Source: Oceanidesulfovibrio marinus (GTDB taxonomy: Bacteria > Desulfobacterota > Desulfovibrionia > Desulfovibrionales > Desulfovibrionaceae). From it: a stretch of DNA of 64,000 nucleotides. Positions 5,397 through 59,405 of the stretch are shown here, one piece after another (positions within the stretch are counted from its first letter, which is position 1; every line of letters starts with the position of its first letter). The position numbers and the translations under genes were made by a program. Under the pieces are notes generated by a model. That model saw only the letters and a list, made by a program, of their open reading frames with translations, did not search any database and was not told the origin of the DNA. The DNA is taken from positions 868,001 to 932,000 of the forward strand of contig NZ_CP039543.1 in the NCBI RefSeq assembly GCF_013085545.1, given 5' to 3'.

Positions 5397-8081
5397 ATGA
5401 GCGCTGTCAAACTCACACCCATGTTCGAGCAGTACCTCGGGATCAAGGAGGAGTATCCCGACGCGCTGCTGTTCTATCGTATGGGTGATTTCTACGAGCT
5501 TTTTTTTGAGGACGCGGAGATCGCCGCGCGCGAGCTCTCCATCGCCCTTACCAGCCGCAACCCCAACGACGAGGCGCGCGTGCCCATGTGCGGCGTGCCC
5601 CACCACGCTGCCAAGGAGTATCTGGGCAAGCTCCTGCAGAAAGGCTTCAAGGTCGCGATCTGCGATCAGATAGAAGACCCCAAGGAGGCCAAGGGCCTGG
5701 TCAAGCGCGCGGTCACCCGGGTGCTCACTCCGGCCACTGTTGTGGACGAAGACTCCCTGGAGGCCAAGGACCACAACTTCCTTGCCGCGCTGTTCTGGAA
5801 CTCCTCCAAGAACCGCGGCGGCCTTGGCTGGTTGGACTACTCCACGGGCGACTGGTCCGGGTTCGAGTCCGCACGCGAGACCGAGCTGTGGCAGTGGGCG
5901 CAGAAGATCGGCCCGCGCGAGCTGCTGGTTCCGGAAGGGCACGAGGTTCCCGCTTCCCTGGCCCAGAACTTTTCCCAGATCGTGCGCCTGCCCGGCAAGG
6001 GCCCCTTTGACGGCGCCGCAGCCGAGCAGCGCATCTGCAAGGCGCAACGCGTGGCCGACCTCGCCGTGCTCGACCTGGCCGGCAAGCCCGAGCTGGTCAG
6101 GGCGCTTGGCGGATTGCTCTTTTACTGCGTGCAGACCCAGAAGCACGAGTTGGAGCACCTGGCCCCGTTCAAGCCGCTGACCCTGGGCAAGCACCTGCTG
6201 CTGGACGAGGTGACCGAGCGCAACCTGGAACTCTTCCGCCGGCTGGACGGCCGCACCGGGCCGGGCACCCTGCTCCACGTGCTGGACAAGACCAAGACGC
6301 CCATGGGCGGCCGGCTGCTGCGCGAACGCCTGAAGCACCCCTGGCGCGAGGCCGGACCCATCGAGGAGACGCTGGACGCCGTGGCCTGGTTCGCAGATGA
6401 CGAGACCCTGCGCGCCAAGGTCCGCGAGGCCCTGGATGCCGTGTACGACCTGGAGCGCTGCATCACCCGCATCTTTCTGGGCCGCGCTACACCCAAGGAC
6501 TTCACGGCACTGCGCTCCTCCATCGCCCGGCTGCCCGGCGTACGGGACCTCCTGGAGCAGCATGGCCAGGCCGCGCCCCCGCCCAAGGCCCTGGCCGCCA
6601 TCCTGGCCAACTGGGATGACCTTTCCGACTTCCACGCCCTGCTCGAAGCGGCTCTGGTGGACAACCCGCCGCCGGTCATCACCGAGGGCGGCCTCTTCCG
6701 CCAGGGATACAGGCCTGAGCTGGACGAGCTCCTGAACCTCACGGAGCACGGCGAGTCCGCCCTGGACGAGCTCCTGGCGCGGGAACGCGCGGACACCGGC
6801 CTGCCCAAGCTGAAGATGGGCTACAACCGCGTGTTCGGCTACTTCTTCGAGCTGCCGCGCGGCCAGAGCGGCGATGCGCCAGAGCGGTTCGTGCGGCGCC
6901 AGACCCTGGCCAATGCCGAGCGCTTCACCACCGACGAGCTCAAGGGCCTGGAAGAGAAGCTGATGAATGCCAGCGAGGAGCGCAAGCGGTTCGAGTACAA
7001 GCTCTTCCTGGAGCTGCGCGACCAGGTGGCCGAGGCCAGACCGCGGTTCCTGTACATGGCCGACGTGCTGGCGGCCGTGGACTACTGGCAGGCCCTGGCC
7101 GAGGCGGCCCGCGTGAACAGCTGGACCCGGCCGGAGCTGACCACGGGACGGGAGCTGAACATCTCCGGCGGACGGCATCCCGTGGTGGAGGCCGTGCAGG
7201 GCGCGGCCAACTTCATCCCCAACGATCTGGCCATGGACGAGGACCGCAAGATTCTGCTCATCACCGGGCCGAACATGGCGGGCAAGTCCACGGTGCTACG
7301 GCAGGCCGCGCTCATCCTCATTCTGGCGCAGATGGGCTCCTTTGTGCCAGCGTCCAAGGCAACGCTGGGCCTGGCCGACCGCATCTTCTCCCGCGTGGGC
7401 GCCTCGGACAACCTGGCCCAGGGCCAGTCCACCTTCATGGTGGAGATGACCGAGACCGCGCGTATCCTGCGCCAGGCCGGCAAGCGCAGTCTGATCATCC
7501 TGGACGAGATAGGCCGCGGCACATCCACATTCGACGGCTTGGCCCTGGCCTGGTCCGTGGTGGAGGAGCTGGCAGCCCGCGGCGGCGACGGCATGCGCAC
7601 CCTCTTCGCCACCCACTACCACGAGCTCACCAGCCTGGAGGGCACCATTCCTGGCGTGCGCAATCTGAACATCGCGGTCAAGGAATGGGGCGGGGATATC
7701 GTGTTCCTGCGGCGGCTCGTGCCCGGACCGTCCGATCGCAGCTACGGCATCGAGGTGGCCAAGCTGGCCGGGGTGCCGCCGCGCGTGGTGCAGCGGGCCA
7801 AGGCCATTCTGGCCGAACTGGAGGAGCGCGCCAAACGCGGGGAGTCCCACCGCGGTGCGTTCACCCGCATCGAGACCTGCCCGACCACCCTGCCCGGCAT
7901 GGACCGGCCCGGACACAGGAACGAGATTCCGGAGGAGCCTCCGGGCTTCGAGGATATTGCCCCGGAGCGCGCCGAGCTGCTGAACCAGATCGCCGAGAGT
8001 CTGGCGTCCGTGGATCTGGACGCCCTCTCGCCGCTGGAAGCTCTCAACATGCTGAGTTCGTTAAAAAAACGCCTGGAATAA
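5397..8081 (+). CDS. mutS: DNA mismatch repair protein MutS
   Basis: 894 residues, normal to slightly long for bacterial MutS. The mismatch-reading GDFYELF motif lies near residues 27-33 (the Phe stacks on the mismatch and the Glu contacts it). The connector, lever and clamp domains follow. The ATPase domain has Walker A TGPNMAGKST near 622-631 and Walker B DEIGRGTSTFDG near 703, then the THYHEL segment and a C-terminal helix-turn-helix dimerisation region (RSYGIEVAKLAGVP). The C-terminal tail probably carries the tetramerisation segment. MutS recognises mispairs and recruits MutL. The gene has no obvious ribosome binding site and follows the LapA-like gene by 99 nt; mutL is not in the window. 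Confidence 0.99.
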   Translation: MSAVKLTPMFEQYLGIKEEYPDALLFYRMGDFYELFFEDAEIAARELSIALTSRNPNDEARVPMCGVPHHAAKEYLGKLLQKGFKVAICDQIEDPKEAKGLVKRAVTRVLTPATVVDEDSLEAKDHNFLAALFWNSSKNRGGLGWLDYSTGDWSGFESARETELWQWAQKIGPRELLVPEGHEVPASLAQNFSQIVRLPGKGPFDGAAAEQRICKAQRVADLAVLDLAGKPELVRALGGLLFYCVQTQKHELEHLAPFKPLTLGKHLLLDEVTERNLELFRRLDGRTGPGTLLHVLDKTKTPMGGRLLRERLKHPWREAGPIEETLDAVAWFADDETLRAKVREALDAVYDLERCITRIFLGRATPKDFTALRSSIARLPGVRDLLEQHGQAAPPPKALAAILANWDDLSDFHALLEAALVDNPPPVITEGGLFRQGYRPELDELLNLTEHGESALDELLARERADTGLPKLKMGYNRVFGYFFELPRGQSGDAPERFVRRQTLANAERFTTDELKGLEEKLMNASEERKRFEYKLFLELRDQVAEARPRFLYMADVLAAVDYWQALAEAARVNSWTRPELTTGRELNISGGRHPVVEAVQGAANFIPNDLAMDEDRKILLITGPNMAGKSTVLRQAALILILAQMGSFVPASKATLGLADRIFSRVGASDNLAQGQSTFMVEMTETARILRQAGKRSLIILDEIGRGTSTFDGLALAWSVVEELAARGGDGMRTLFATHYHELTSLEGTIPGVRNLNIAVKEWGGDIVFLRRLVPGPSDRSYGIEVAKLAGVPPRVVQRAKAILAELEERAKRGESHRGAFTRIETCPTTLPGMDRPGHRNEIPEEPPGFEDIAPERAELLNQIAESLASVDLDALSPLEALNMLSSLKKRLE

Positions 8082-8233
8082 AACTGACGGTCCACAACTG
8101 TCCCGCAGGATCATACATCTTTTTCATATCGTTGATTCTGCAACAATATATTGGACATATTTCAGCCGCGTGCGGTACGTCTTCCGGCAAGAGCGGAGAA
8201 CAGCGCCTGGCCGCATCCGCCAAATTTGCTCGA

Positions 8234-8335
8234 ATTAGCGCATTTTCGTCTTGAAACAAGACTCCCATCTGAAACAACTTACTGTTGTTTCAGATAAATG
8301 CATGAGAGCATCTAAACCTTTTCAAGGCTAATATG
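8234..8335. repeat. Dispersed ~100-bp repeat, copy A (upstream of lysA)
   Basis: This stretch between mutS and lysA aligns over about 100 bp with 58883-58984, some 50 kb away, in the same window orientation. A 50-bp ungapped block (8287-8336 against 58936-58985, approximately) matches at 39 positions by my count, and a 27-bp block at the other end matches at 22. No known gene, tRNA or insertion sequence accounts for it. It contains the perfect inverted repeat listed separately. No open frame is shared by both copies. Confidence 0.65.
8267..8295. promoter_or_regulatory. Perfect 12-bp inverted repeat upstream of lysA
   Basis: ATCTGAAACAAC (8267-8278), a 5-nt spacer and GTTGTTTCAGAT (8284-8295) form a perfect hairpin or operator-like palindrome about 65 nt before the lysA start. 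No U-run follows on either strand, so an intrinsic terminator for mutS is unlikely. It could be a protein-binding operator or an RNA hairpin in the lysA leader. The equivalent position in repeat copy B is not a perfect palindrome. Confidence 0.5.
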
Positions 8336-8360
8336 CTCTAAACGCCAAGGACTGATACAT

Positions 8361-9617
8361 ATGCATTTTTTTGAACATCGTGGCGGCGAGCTCTATGCCG
8401 AGGATCTCCGTGTTACCGACCTTGTCAAGGAGTTCGGATCGCCCCTCTACATCTACTCTGCCAAGACATTTCGCCGGCATTTCGAGGCCTTTGACTCCGC
8501 CTTTGCCGGTCTGGACCACCTCACCTGCTACTCGGTGAAGGCCAACTCCAATCTCTGCATCCTGAAGCTCCTCGCGGAGATGGGCGCCGGCATGGACATC
8601 GTTTCCGGCGGCGAGCTCTACCGCGCGCTTAAGGCCGGGGTCGATCCGTCCAAGATCGTCTACTCCGGCGTGGGAAAACGCAGCTACGAGATTGAGGAGG
8701 CGCTGACCGCGGACATCCTGATGTTCAATGTGGAGTCCCTGGCCGAGCTGGAAAAGATCAATGAAATCGCCGGGAACATGGGCAAGAAGGCGCGCATCAG
8801 CCTGCGCATCAACCCGGATGTGGACCCCAAGACCCACCCCTACATTGCCACCGGCCTGAAGAAGGCCAAGTTCGGCCTGGACATCGAGTCCTCCCTGGCC
8901 GCGTACGCCAAGGCCAAAGAGCTGGAGCACATCGAACCCGTGGGCATCGACTGCCACATCGGCTCGCAGCTCACCTCCATCGATCCTTTCCTGGAGGCCC
9001 TGGACAAGATTATGGCCTTCCGCGACAAGCTCACGGCCATGGGCCTGGACATCCAGTACCTCGACCTCGGCGGCGGGCTCGGCATCACCTATGACGAGGA
9101 AGAGCCGCCCCACCCCTCGGCATTCGGCGAGGCCCTGACGCAGAAGCTGGCCGGCCTGCCCATGAAGGTCATCCTGGAGCCTGGCCGCGTCATCGCCGGC
9201 AACTCCGGCATCCTGGTCACTGAGGTCCTCTACACCAAGGGCGGTGAGACCAAGGAGTTCGTCATCGTGGATGGCGCCATGAATGACTTGGTGCGGCCCT
9301 CGCTGTACGGCTCGTTCCACCGCATCGGCGAGGTTACGCCCAAGGGCCGGCCCGAGCACGTGGTGGACGTGGTGGGCCCCATTTGCGAGTCCGGCGACTT
9401 CCTGGCGCGGGAGCGCAGCCTGCCTGCCGTGGAGTCCGGCGAGCTCCTGGCGGTCTACTCGGCCGGTGCCTACGGCTTTACCATGAGCTCCAACTACAAC
9501 TCGCGTCCCCGTGTAGCCGAGATCCTCGTGGACGGCGACCAGGCTATCCTGGCGCGCCGCCGGGAGACGTACGAAGACCTCGTGGAAGCCGAGAAGAGCT
9601 GCCTGGACAAGATCTAA
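8361..9617 (+). CDS. lysA: Diaminopimelate decarboxylase
   Basis: 418 residues, the usual length. It catalyses the last step of lysine synthesis, decarboxylating meso-diaminopimelate with pyridoxal phosphate. The PLP-binding lysine lies in CYSVKANSN (K60), the glycine-rich phosphate loop is DLGGGLGI, the EPGRVIAGNSG segment contacts PLP/substrate, and the catalytic Cys of CESGDFLA is near residue 342, donated across the dimer. All are intact. The gene is alone on its transcript, with a strong terminator at 9647-9677. I see no lysine riboswitch in the 279-nt leader, which instead holds the dispersed repeat and the inverted repeat. Confidence 0.98.
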   Translation: MHFFEHRGGELYAEDLRVTDLVKEFGSPLYIYSAKTFRRHFEAFDSAFAGLDHLTCYSVKANSNLCILKLLAEMGAGMDIVSGGELYRALKAGVDPSKIVYSGVGKRSYEIEEALTADILMFNVESLAELEKINEIAGNMGKKARISLRINPDVDPKTHPYIATGLKKAKFGLDIESSLAAYAKAKELEHIEPVGIDCHIGSQLTSIDPFLEALDKIMAFRDKLTAMGLDIQYLDLGGGLGITYDEEEPPHPSAFGEALTQKLAGLPMKVILEPGRVIAGNSGILVTEVLYTKGGETKEFVIVDGAMNDLVRPSLYGSFHRIGEVTPKGRPEHVVDVVGPICESGDFLARERSLPAVESGELLAVYSAGAYGFTMSSNYNSRPRVAEILVDGDQAILARRRETYEDLVEAEKSCLDKI

Positions 9618-58882: not shown

Positions 58883-58985
58883 CTTCAGCGCATTGTCATC
58901 GAAAAACAAGACTTACAGTGAAGCAATCTCCTGTTGTTCCAGATCAATGCATACGAGCAGCCAAGCCGTTTCAAGCGTACGATGC
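58883..58985. repeat. Dispersed ~100-bp repeat, copy B (3' of the PPC/DUF296 gene)
   Basis: Second copy of the element seen at 8234-8335. It begins immediately at the stop codon of the PPC/DUF296 gene and lies in that gene's 3' region. On the minus strand it is followed within about 70-100 nt by the terminator at 58771-58818, so it is probably transcribed as a 3' untranslated region or an independent small RNA. Conserved blocks include AAACAAGACT, CTGTTGTT, CAGAT, AATGCAT and TTTCAAG. Confidence 0.65.
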
Positions 58986-59405
58986 TTAATACTTGATCAG
59001 GTTCAGACCGATCTTCTCGCTGTGCTCGCGGTCGATCTGGCCGTCAAAGGTGTCGATGATGATCTCCGCGGTACAGCTCACGTCCGCCTCGTTCAGGTGG
59101 CCGCCCTGGGCGTTGGCCTCGATGTCCGCCAGGGTGGCGTGGGCGTGGATGTAGACCTCGCCGTTCATGGTGCTCACGTTGCCCGCCAGGGCAGTGATCT
59201 CCATGTACTTCTTCAGCTCGTTGGAATGGTACTTCTTTTCCTTGGGATCAAAGAGGCCGACCACAGCGCGGTCCACGGCGCCGATGCCGTTCAGCACGCC
59301 CATGGTGACCTTTTCCTCGCGGCATACAGTCTTGATGGACTCGATGACCTCGTCGCCAGGGTCGAGACGAATCACAATTTTTGCGCCAAAGCGTTTGTAT
59401 TCCAT
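58986..59405 (-). CDS. PPC/DUF296 domain DNA-binding-type protein
   Basis: 139 residues with GGAGGA 6 nt upstream. One PPC domain fills the protein: LDPGDEVIESIKTVCREEKVTMGVLNGIGAVDRAVVGLFD and the signature VYIHAHATLADIEANAQGGHLNEADV, with His residues that bind a metal in family structures. Plant homologues bear AT-hooks and bind DNA; the stand-alone bacterial proteins have no proven role, and DNA binding is only inferred. Its stop codon abuts the dispersed repeat copy B. Confidence 0.9.
   Translation of the reverse strand: MEYKRFGAKIVIRLDPGDEVIESIKTVCREEKVTMGVLNGIGAVDRAVVGLFDPKEKKYHSNELKKYMEITALAGNVSTMNGEVYIHAHATLADIEANAQGGHLNEADVSCTAEIIIDTFDGQIDREHSEKIGLNLIKY

Follow-up and report, generated by a model that had tools for sequence, protein, structure and literature searches.

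A 105-bp folded repeat family of Desulfovibrionaceae with the probable character of a MITE-like mobile element

Two copies of a short element and their neighbourhoods

The stretch of DNA analysed here (the window) comprises 64,000 nucleotides of the genome of Oceanidesulfovibrio marinus, which is assembled as one contig of 4.76 Mb (genome G000; window at C1:868001-932000). Two copies of an element of about 100 bp are found in it, in the same orientation. Copy A, a full element of 105 bp from TA to TA, occupies positions 8236..8340 of the plus strand, between mutS (5397-8081) and lysA (8361-9617), both identified by Pfam; it is documented by blastn against its own genome, by a covariance model of the family (R1, 122.4 bits) and by its folding. 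Copy B, at 58886..58988 of the plus strand, abuts a PPC/DUF296 gene on the minus strand (58986-59405), whose TAA stop codon (58986-58988) overlaps the 3' end of the copy and lies within the element's last bases. An earlier note on this DNA had located the pair at 8234-8335 and 58883-58985, which are the right places but off by two to five bases, and had put copy B in the 3' region of the PPC/DUF296 gene, which the copy in fact adjoins without lying inside it.

In a gapped alignment, A and B are identical at 78 of 103 aligned positions (75.7%), and the best ungapped block, starting at 8282 in A and 58931 in B, matches at 39 of 50 bp, exactly as the earlier note had counted by hand. The local alignment score is 99, compared with a mean of 17.6 and a maximum of 34 among 2000 dinucleotide shuffles of B; among 250-base tiles taken from either strand, the best one outside A and B scored 31. 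A blastn search of the genome with copy A did not return copy B, and a search with copy B returned itself and one weak match (E 0.6) and not copy A, because B is too diverged for blastn. Membership of B in the family rests on the direct alignment with A and on R1 (68 bits, with B itself among the model's 11 training rows). The two blastn results are the sole point in favour of a chance similarity, the probability of which is practically nil against a score so far above the shuffle maximum and a multi-copy family in the same genome.

The element is bounded by imperfect 21-bp terminal inverted repeats, which in copy A (8236..8256, plus strand, and 8320..8340, minus strand) agree at 17 of 21 positions as reverse complements. 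Reading from the 5' TA, a three-way junction in which helix P1 (GCATTT/AAATGC) closes P2 (GTCTTG/CAAGAC) and P3 (12 bp) forms the 5' arm (8240..8301, plus strand). It is followed by a linker, ATGAG in copy A and ATAAG in most other copies, and by the 3' arm (8305..8339, plus strand), a long hairpin with internal mismatches, P4, that adjoins the 3' TA. Both arms were delineated by predicted folds and covariation. On both strands, as RNA and as DNA, copy A folds far beyond its shuffles (z -6.0 to -8.0; plus strand -7.35 as RNA and -7.99 as DNA). The plus strand of copy B folds no better than shuffles (z 0.12 as RNA, -0.9 as DNA), and its minus strand folds weakly (z -2.0). Copy A is the well-preserved member of the pair and copy B the worn one.

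Copy A ends 20 bases before lysA and is an exception to the placement at stop codons described below. Upstream of it, a 26-base block (8137-8162) is identical in a congener (genome G001) while the rest of the gap has diverged; this block overlaps a promoter-like match and is likely to be the lysA promoter or operator. Because copy A follows this block and lies so close to the gene, it probably sits in the lysA leader, and any influence that it has on lysA would be incidental. Only one terminator-like match falls on copy A, in the minus strand of P3, and 0.8 such matches are expected by chance. A search of the window against Rfam gave no match at the gathering score and two chance-level matches near copy A (E 9-10). 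The element is too short for an ordinary gene, and the only mechanical open reading frames (ORFs) of at least 100 amino acids there overlap its ends.

Distribution, ends and insertion sites

The earlier note had reasoned that the A/B match would be a coincidence if a genome-wide search found no further copies and proper alignment showed near-background identity; both blastn and the covariance model did find further copies. With copy A as the query, blastn identified nine others that span most of the element (E<=3e-13) and a partial one (1e-11). Counting A and B, the whole-element model R1, built from 11 copies, recognised 12 places in G000 at a threshold of E<=7e-6 and 14 when this was relaxed to E<=0.0021. 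The suggestion that the pair arose by recent duplication was therefore wrong, both copies being members of an older multi-copy family. At E<=0.01, R1 matched 4 of 39 related genomes, its own included: G000, the congener G001 (5 matches), G014 (8, all shorter, at 48-65 bases) and G004 (one weak match). A second model, R2, which describes the P4 hairpin alone, matched 10 of 99 genomes of the family, own included, with 31 matches in G043, a genome from another genus of the same family, and none in G004. For G043, 24 of the 31 R2 loci were fetched, and all 24 also match the full model R1. Three element patterns gave 0, 1 and 0 matches in viral contigs, the single match lying inside a mechanical ORF and without an R1 match, and plasmid and phage records held nothing matching copy A with flanks.

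Relatives sharing P4 and having other 5' parts occur in G040, G067, G078, G083 and G102 and may represent a wider superfamily or convergence. In G078 there are 64 matches to the P4 hairpin, with a different 5' part (TAGAGCAATTTAA...) and some near contig ends (L061, L070, L079, L086-L089); these are perhaps a sister repeat family. A search there for an IS with a P4 hairpin on each side, covering the ORFs of L086 and L088 (2 of 6 stretches), found no ORF that was transposase-like by eye. Separately, a different dispersed repeat of about 110 bp adjoins an element copy at L019:1304-1415 and has more than 15 matches in G001.

The ends of the element follow the pattern TAGNGCATNTNNNNCTTGAAA. Of 40 copies, 30 both begin and end with TA and 10 do not; the TA is preceded by a pyrimidine and followed by a purine in 23 of the 30, including 12 with C and G (CTAG), and such a TA could equally be a 2-bp target duplication or the element's own TA at one end, the two being indistinguishable. 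In the 36-copy alignment, the base immediately inside the 5' TA is G in 32 copies and the one immediately inside the 3' TA is C in 34, so that a TAG or TAA receiving the element stays a stop codon in either orientation.

Among 44 loci (16 from G000, 5 from G001 and 23 from G043), there are 27 at which the stop codon of a neighbouring ORF falls in one of the element's ends, usually being made up of TA and the initial G of the element. The count is 12 of 21 in G000 and G001 together, or 13 with copy B, which is one base off in model coordinates, and 15 of 23 in G043, where L137, at a contig start, was excluded and 7 of the 31 matches were not among the loci fetched. The G000 loci include the weak matches L028-L031 (E 9e-4 to 0.6), without which the total is 25 of 40; ORFs were called by a longest-ORF and GC3 rule, not taken from annotation. 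As a baseline, non-coding YTAR sites number 56 in the window, and 8 of these lie at stop codons; of its 10 non-coding CTAG sites, 3 do. Binomial comparison of 27/44 with these gives 8e-13 (YTAR) and 2e-5 (CTAG), values that overstate true stop targeting, since the baseline ignores selection against insertions upstream of genes; it is also drawn from the window alone, with the ends of A and B counted in. A preference for CTAG, together with selection, can account for much of the excess. With respect to the gene whose stop is carried, 14 ends are sense and 15 antisense.

Eight host loci were examined in G001. Six lack the element there, namely those of copies A and B, L019, L005, L024 and L030. 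At the loci of A and B, the intergenic DNA is too diverged for the junction to be read. At L005, L024 and L030, the G001 match continues through the joined flanks with a single TAG (TTAG, ATAG and CTAG, respectively) at the element's place; the right flank of L024 is poorly conserved, and the element there ends in CA, not TA. In all three, the alignment shows a stop codon at the corresponding position of the element-free relative, and for this reason the stop was probably the target of insertion rather than a product of truncation. At L019, G001 has GCTC before CTAG, resembling the element's last bases, so this may be a lost copy rather than a never-filled site.

At the other two loci, L023 and L031, each of the two congeners has what appears to be a decayed copy. 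L031/L114, with neighbours taken by eye from their translations for pheS and pheT, is an old insertion common to G000 and G001 that has suffered different internal deletions in each. L027 has lost its 3' half, and L022 stands directly after what appears by eye to be an older decayed copy. In G043, by contrast with this picture of wear, four copies at unrelated loci differ pairwise at 1-3 of 105 bases, which points to recent movement in that genome.

Fold conservation and the pattern of change

The covariance analysis that the earlier note had proposed was run on an alignment of 36 copies (A4; 11 from G000, 4 from G001 and 21 from G043), and all four helices, P1-P4, covary. A4 omits L027-L031 of G000, which are weak or partial, and L032, which is an included copy read on its opposite strand; from G001 it omits the shortened L040, and from G043 L134, L136 and L137, which are shortened, decayed or truncated at a contig end. 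In A4, 90.0% of cells pair. Double changes occur in 28 of 39 pairs, against a mean of 15.8 in shuffled alignments and 7-15 in slid controls, and the covariation score is 0.307, against 0.131 shuffled and <=0.078 in slid controls; as the shuffles ignore relatedness, these figures speak for constraint at the level of the lineage but are not to be read as a probability. Run on A4, RNAalifold recovered P1-P3 and part of P4.

Changes were then counted in 32 nearest-neighbour comparisons between copies. One-sided changes kept the pair, as G-U, in 29 of 135 cases (21.5%), where the transition rate by itself would predict 26-28%. There were 51 double changes, 38 of them paired in both copies, compared with 19.5 expected if the two sides change independently. 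The earlier note's argument that scattered mismatches favour selection thus holds for the paired double changes, which reflect constraint on the lineage, and fails for the one-sided mismatches, which look neutral. The element has kept its fold down its lineage even as individual resident copies decay. Neutral single hits together with double changes in fold-keeping lineages fit a mobile element with folding source copies, or templated correction, and are not what an RNA selected at every site would show.

Templated correction would mean that the paired changes arise by hairpin-templated mutation (quasipalindrome correction) and call for no role of the structure, the element itself still being a MITE. 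An excess of double changes beside near-neutral single changes is what such correction predicts. The arms of P1, however, stand about 50 columns apart around two hairpins and nevertheless show double changes in 3 of 6 pairs, and we consider this account of the covariation doubtful, if worth keeping in mind.

Paired substitutions distinguish the helices P1-P4 of different copies, both from one genome to another and inside a genome, and the loops, linker and TA ends are nearly constant. On these grounds the element could be imagined to move as a folded single strand, with an undescribed recombinase that reads shape more than sequence and lands on YTAR stops, the element being a low-cost passenger that restores the stops it enters. 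We offer this more specific scheme tentatively, as an unlikely one.

A particular form of single-strand movement would be that of a REPIN or REP-like element moved by a Y1 (RAYT) transposase without target duplication. REP and REPIN sequences associated with RAYT have a hairpin beside a fixed tetranucleotide, which resembles the present element, with its hairpin beside a fixed short sequence and its shape kept while the sequence changes; the TA ends are also compatible with the absence of target duplication. A REP pair differs in length and form from this 105-bp two-arm element. Mobilisers were sought with two profiles, PF01797 (Y1) and PF13358 (IS630 type). PF01797 found nothing in G000, G001 or G014, whereas 5 of 14 control genomes, E. 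coli included, were positive; G004, with its one weak R1 match, has two Y1 genes. PF13358 likewise found nothing in four host genomes and was positive in 3 of 14 controls. Because these searches of the host genomes found no IS630-type or Y1 genes, we have filed the element neither as an IS630-derived MITE nor as a REPIN, and movement by a Y1 transposase appears improbable.

A different kind of explanation is that the copies form a multi-copy structured RNA that acts in place, its hairpins being transcribed at gene ends, where they would stabilise, process or terminate mRNA. The strong covariation and the frequent placement at gene 3' ends would suit such a role, as would the short G014 copies L034, L037 and L039, which by eye lie between the arms of terminator-like inverted repeats with runs of G and C; NEMIS (PMC2229807) and BIME (PMC3049150) provide precedents for repeats that act on co-transcribed mRNA. 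Against it, orientation is unbiased, one-sided changes have no G-U bias, and resident copies decay, as seen in B, in L027 and in the different deletions of L031 in the two congeners. Copy A is moreover upstream of lysA rather than at a 3' end, its one terminator-like match is on the minus strand at about the chance level, and Rfam offers no match at the gathering score. An RNA role in place is accordingly the less likely reading, and we hold it to be improbable.

An integron attC site was also considered on account of the shape and the position after stop codons. attC sites carry GTTRRRY/RYYYAAC boxes; inspection by eye found the ends of the element to be without them, and this candidate was dropped.

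Relation to known repeats and proposed life cycle

RIME of Rhizobium is a repeat that we take to belong with CIR and Bru-RS. The models R1 and R2 found no match in positions 1-50000 of S. meliloti pSymB, searched for RIME-like relatives, a weak test at 50 kb and with no confirmed positive. ERIC/IRU/RU-1 elements form one long end-to-end stem, and they differ further from the present element in their length of 127 bp and in their hosts. Like it, they are small, end in TA and have inverted repeats at their termini; a duplication of the target is described for them (PMC2229807).

More generally, several accounts describe bacterial MITE-like repeats as sequences of about 100-200 bp, mostly TA-ended, rich in hairpins and mostly intergenic, with mobilisers that are seldom identified (PMC2229807, PMC10969869, PMC3049150, PMC2267715). 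Among them, RUP (the repeat unit of pneumococcus, 107 bp) is like the present element in length, intergenic position, terminal inverted repeats, TA termini and tight folding (PMC2229807, PMC3049150). The ends of RUP resemble its host's IS630-Spn1, whereas an IS630-type gene was found in none of the four host genomes here, and in descriptions of RUP the terminal repeats pair with each other, whereas the two arms here fold independently. CIR of Caulobacter and Brucella has about 110 bp, TA termini and two folded arms with a linker, as here (PMC2229807), and Bru-RS of Brucella is given as 103-105 bp or 118 (PMC2267715). CIR has a reported GANTC (CcrM) site; GANTC is present in 7 of 11 G000 copies and 3 of 4 G001 copies but in 0 of 21 G043 copies, and as a shared feature it was dropped. 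In BOX of S. pneumoniae, a copy supplies a gene's stop codon in 36 cases, as element ends do here (PMC3049150); BOX differs in its modular A/B/C structure and its host. Of the known repeats, RUP is the nearest in size and ends and CIR in two-arm form, and BOX is a precedent for supplying stops. In the titles of the Desulfovibrio literature searched, no such repeat is named, which is not proof that the present family is absent from print.

Taken together, the results identify A and B, with considerable confidence, as members of a non-autonomous, MITE-like mobile family whose element is about 105 bp long and of the RUP/ERIC/CIR kind. The family belongs to the Desulfovibrionaceae and is recently mobile in one genus and older and decaying in the genome of the window. 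Beside a small RNA family and a shared protein-binding region, the earlier note had suggested a decayed mobile element: the dispersed copies, sharp TA ends, element-free congener loci and near-identical G043 copies bear out the mobility, and the decay applies to copy B. We propose that a transposase acting in trans would recognise the inverted-repeat or folded ends and that insertion would occur at TA within YTAR, often CTAG, with duplication of the TA. Insertion into TAG or TAA would restore the stop either way round and leave the neighbouring genes intact, so that stop codons would be the safe landing sites that survive selection. After insertion, copies would drift and decay, as copy B appears to have done.

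For such a mobile element, the near-identical copies in G043 are a place to look for the mobiliser. Conservation of the fold at the level of the lineage and neutral decay of resident copies proved separable by counting, and such a counting test could help elsewhere in distinguishing mobile hairpins from non-coding RNAs that have a function. The family adds a stop-codon-associated, MITE-like member in the Desulfovibrionaceae to a kind of repeat that the reviews consulted describe in other bacterial groups.
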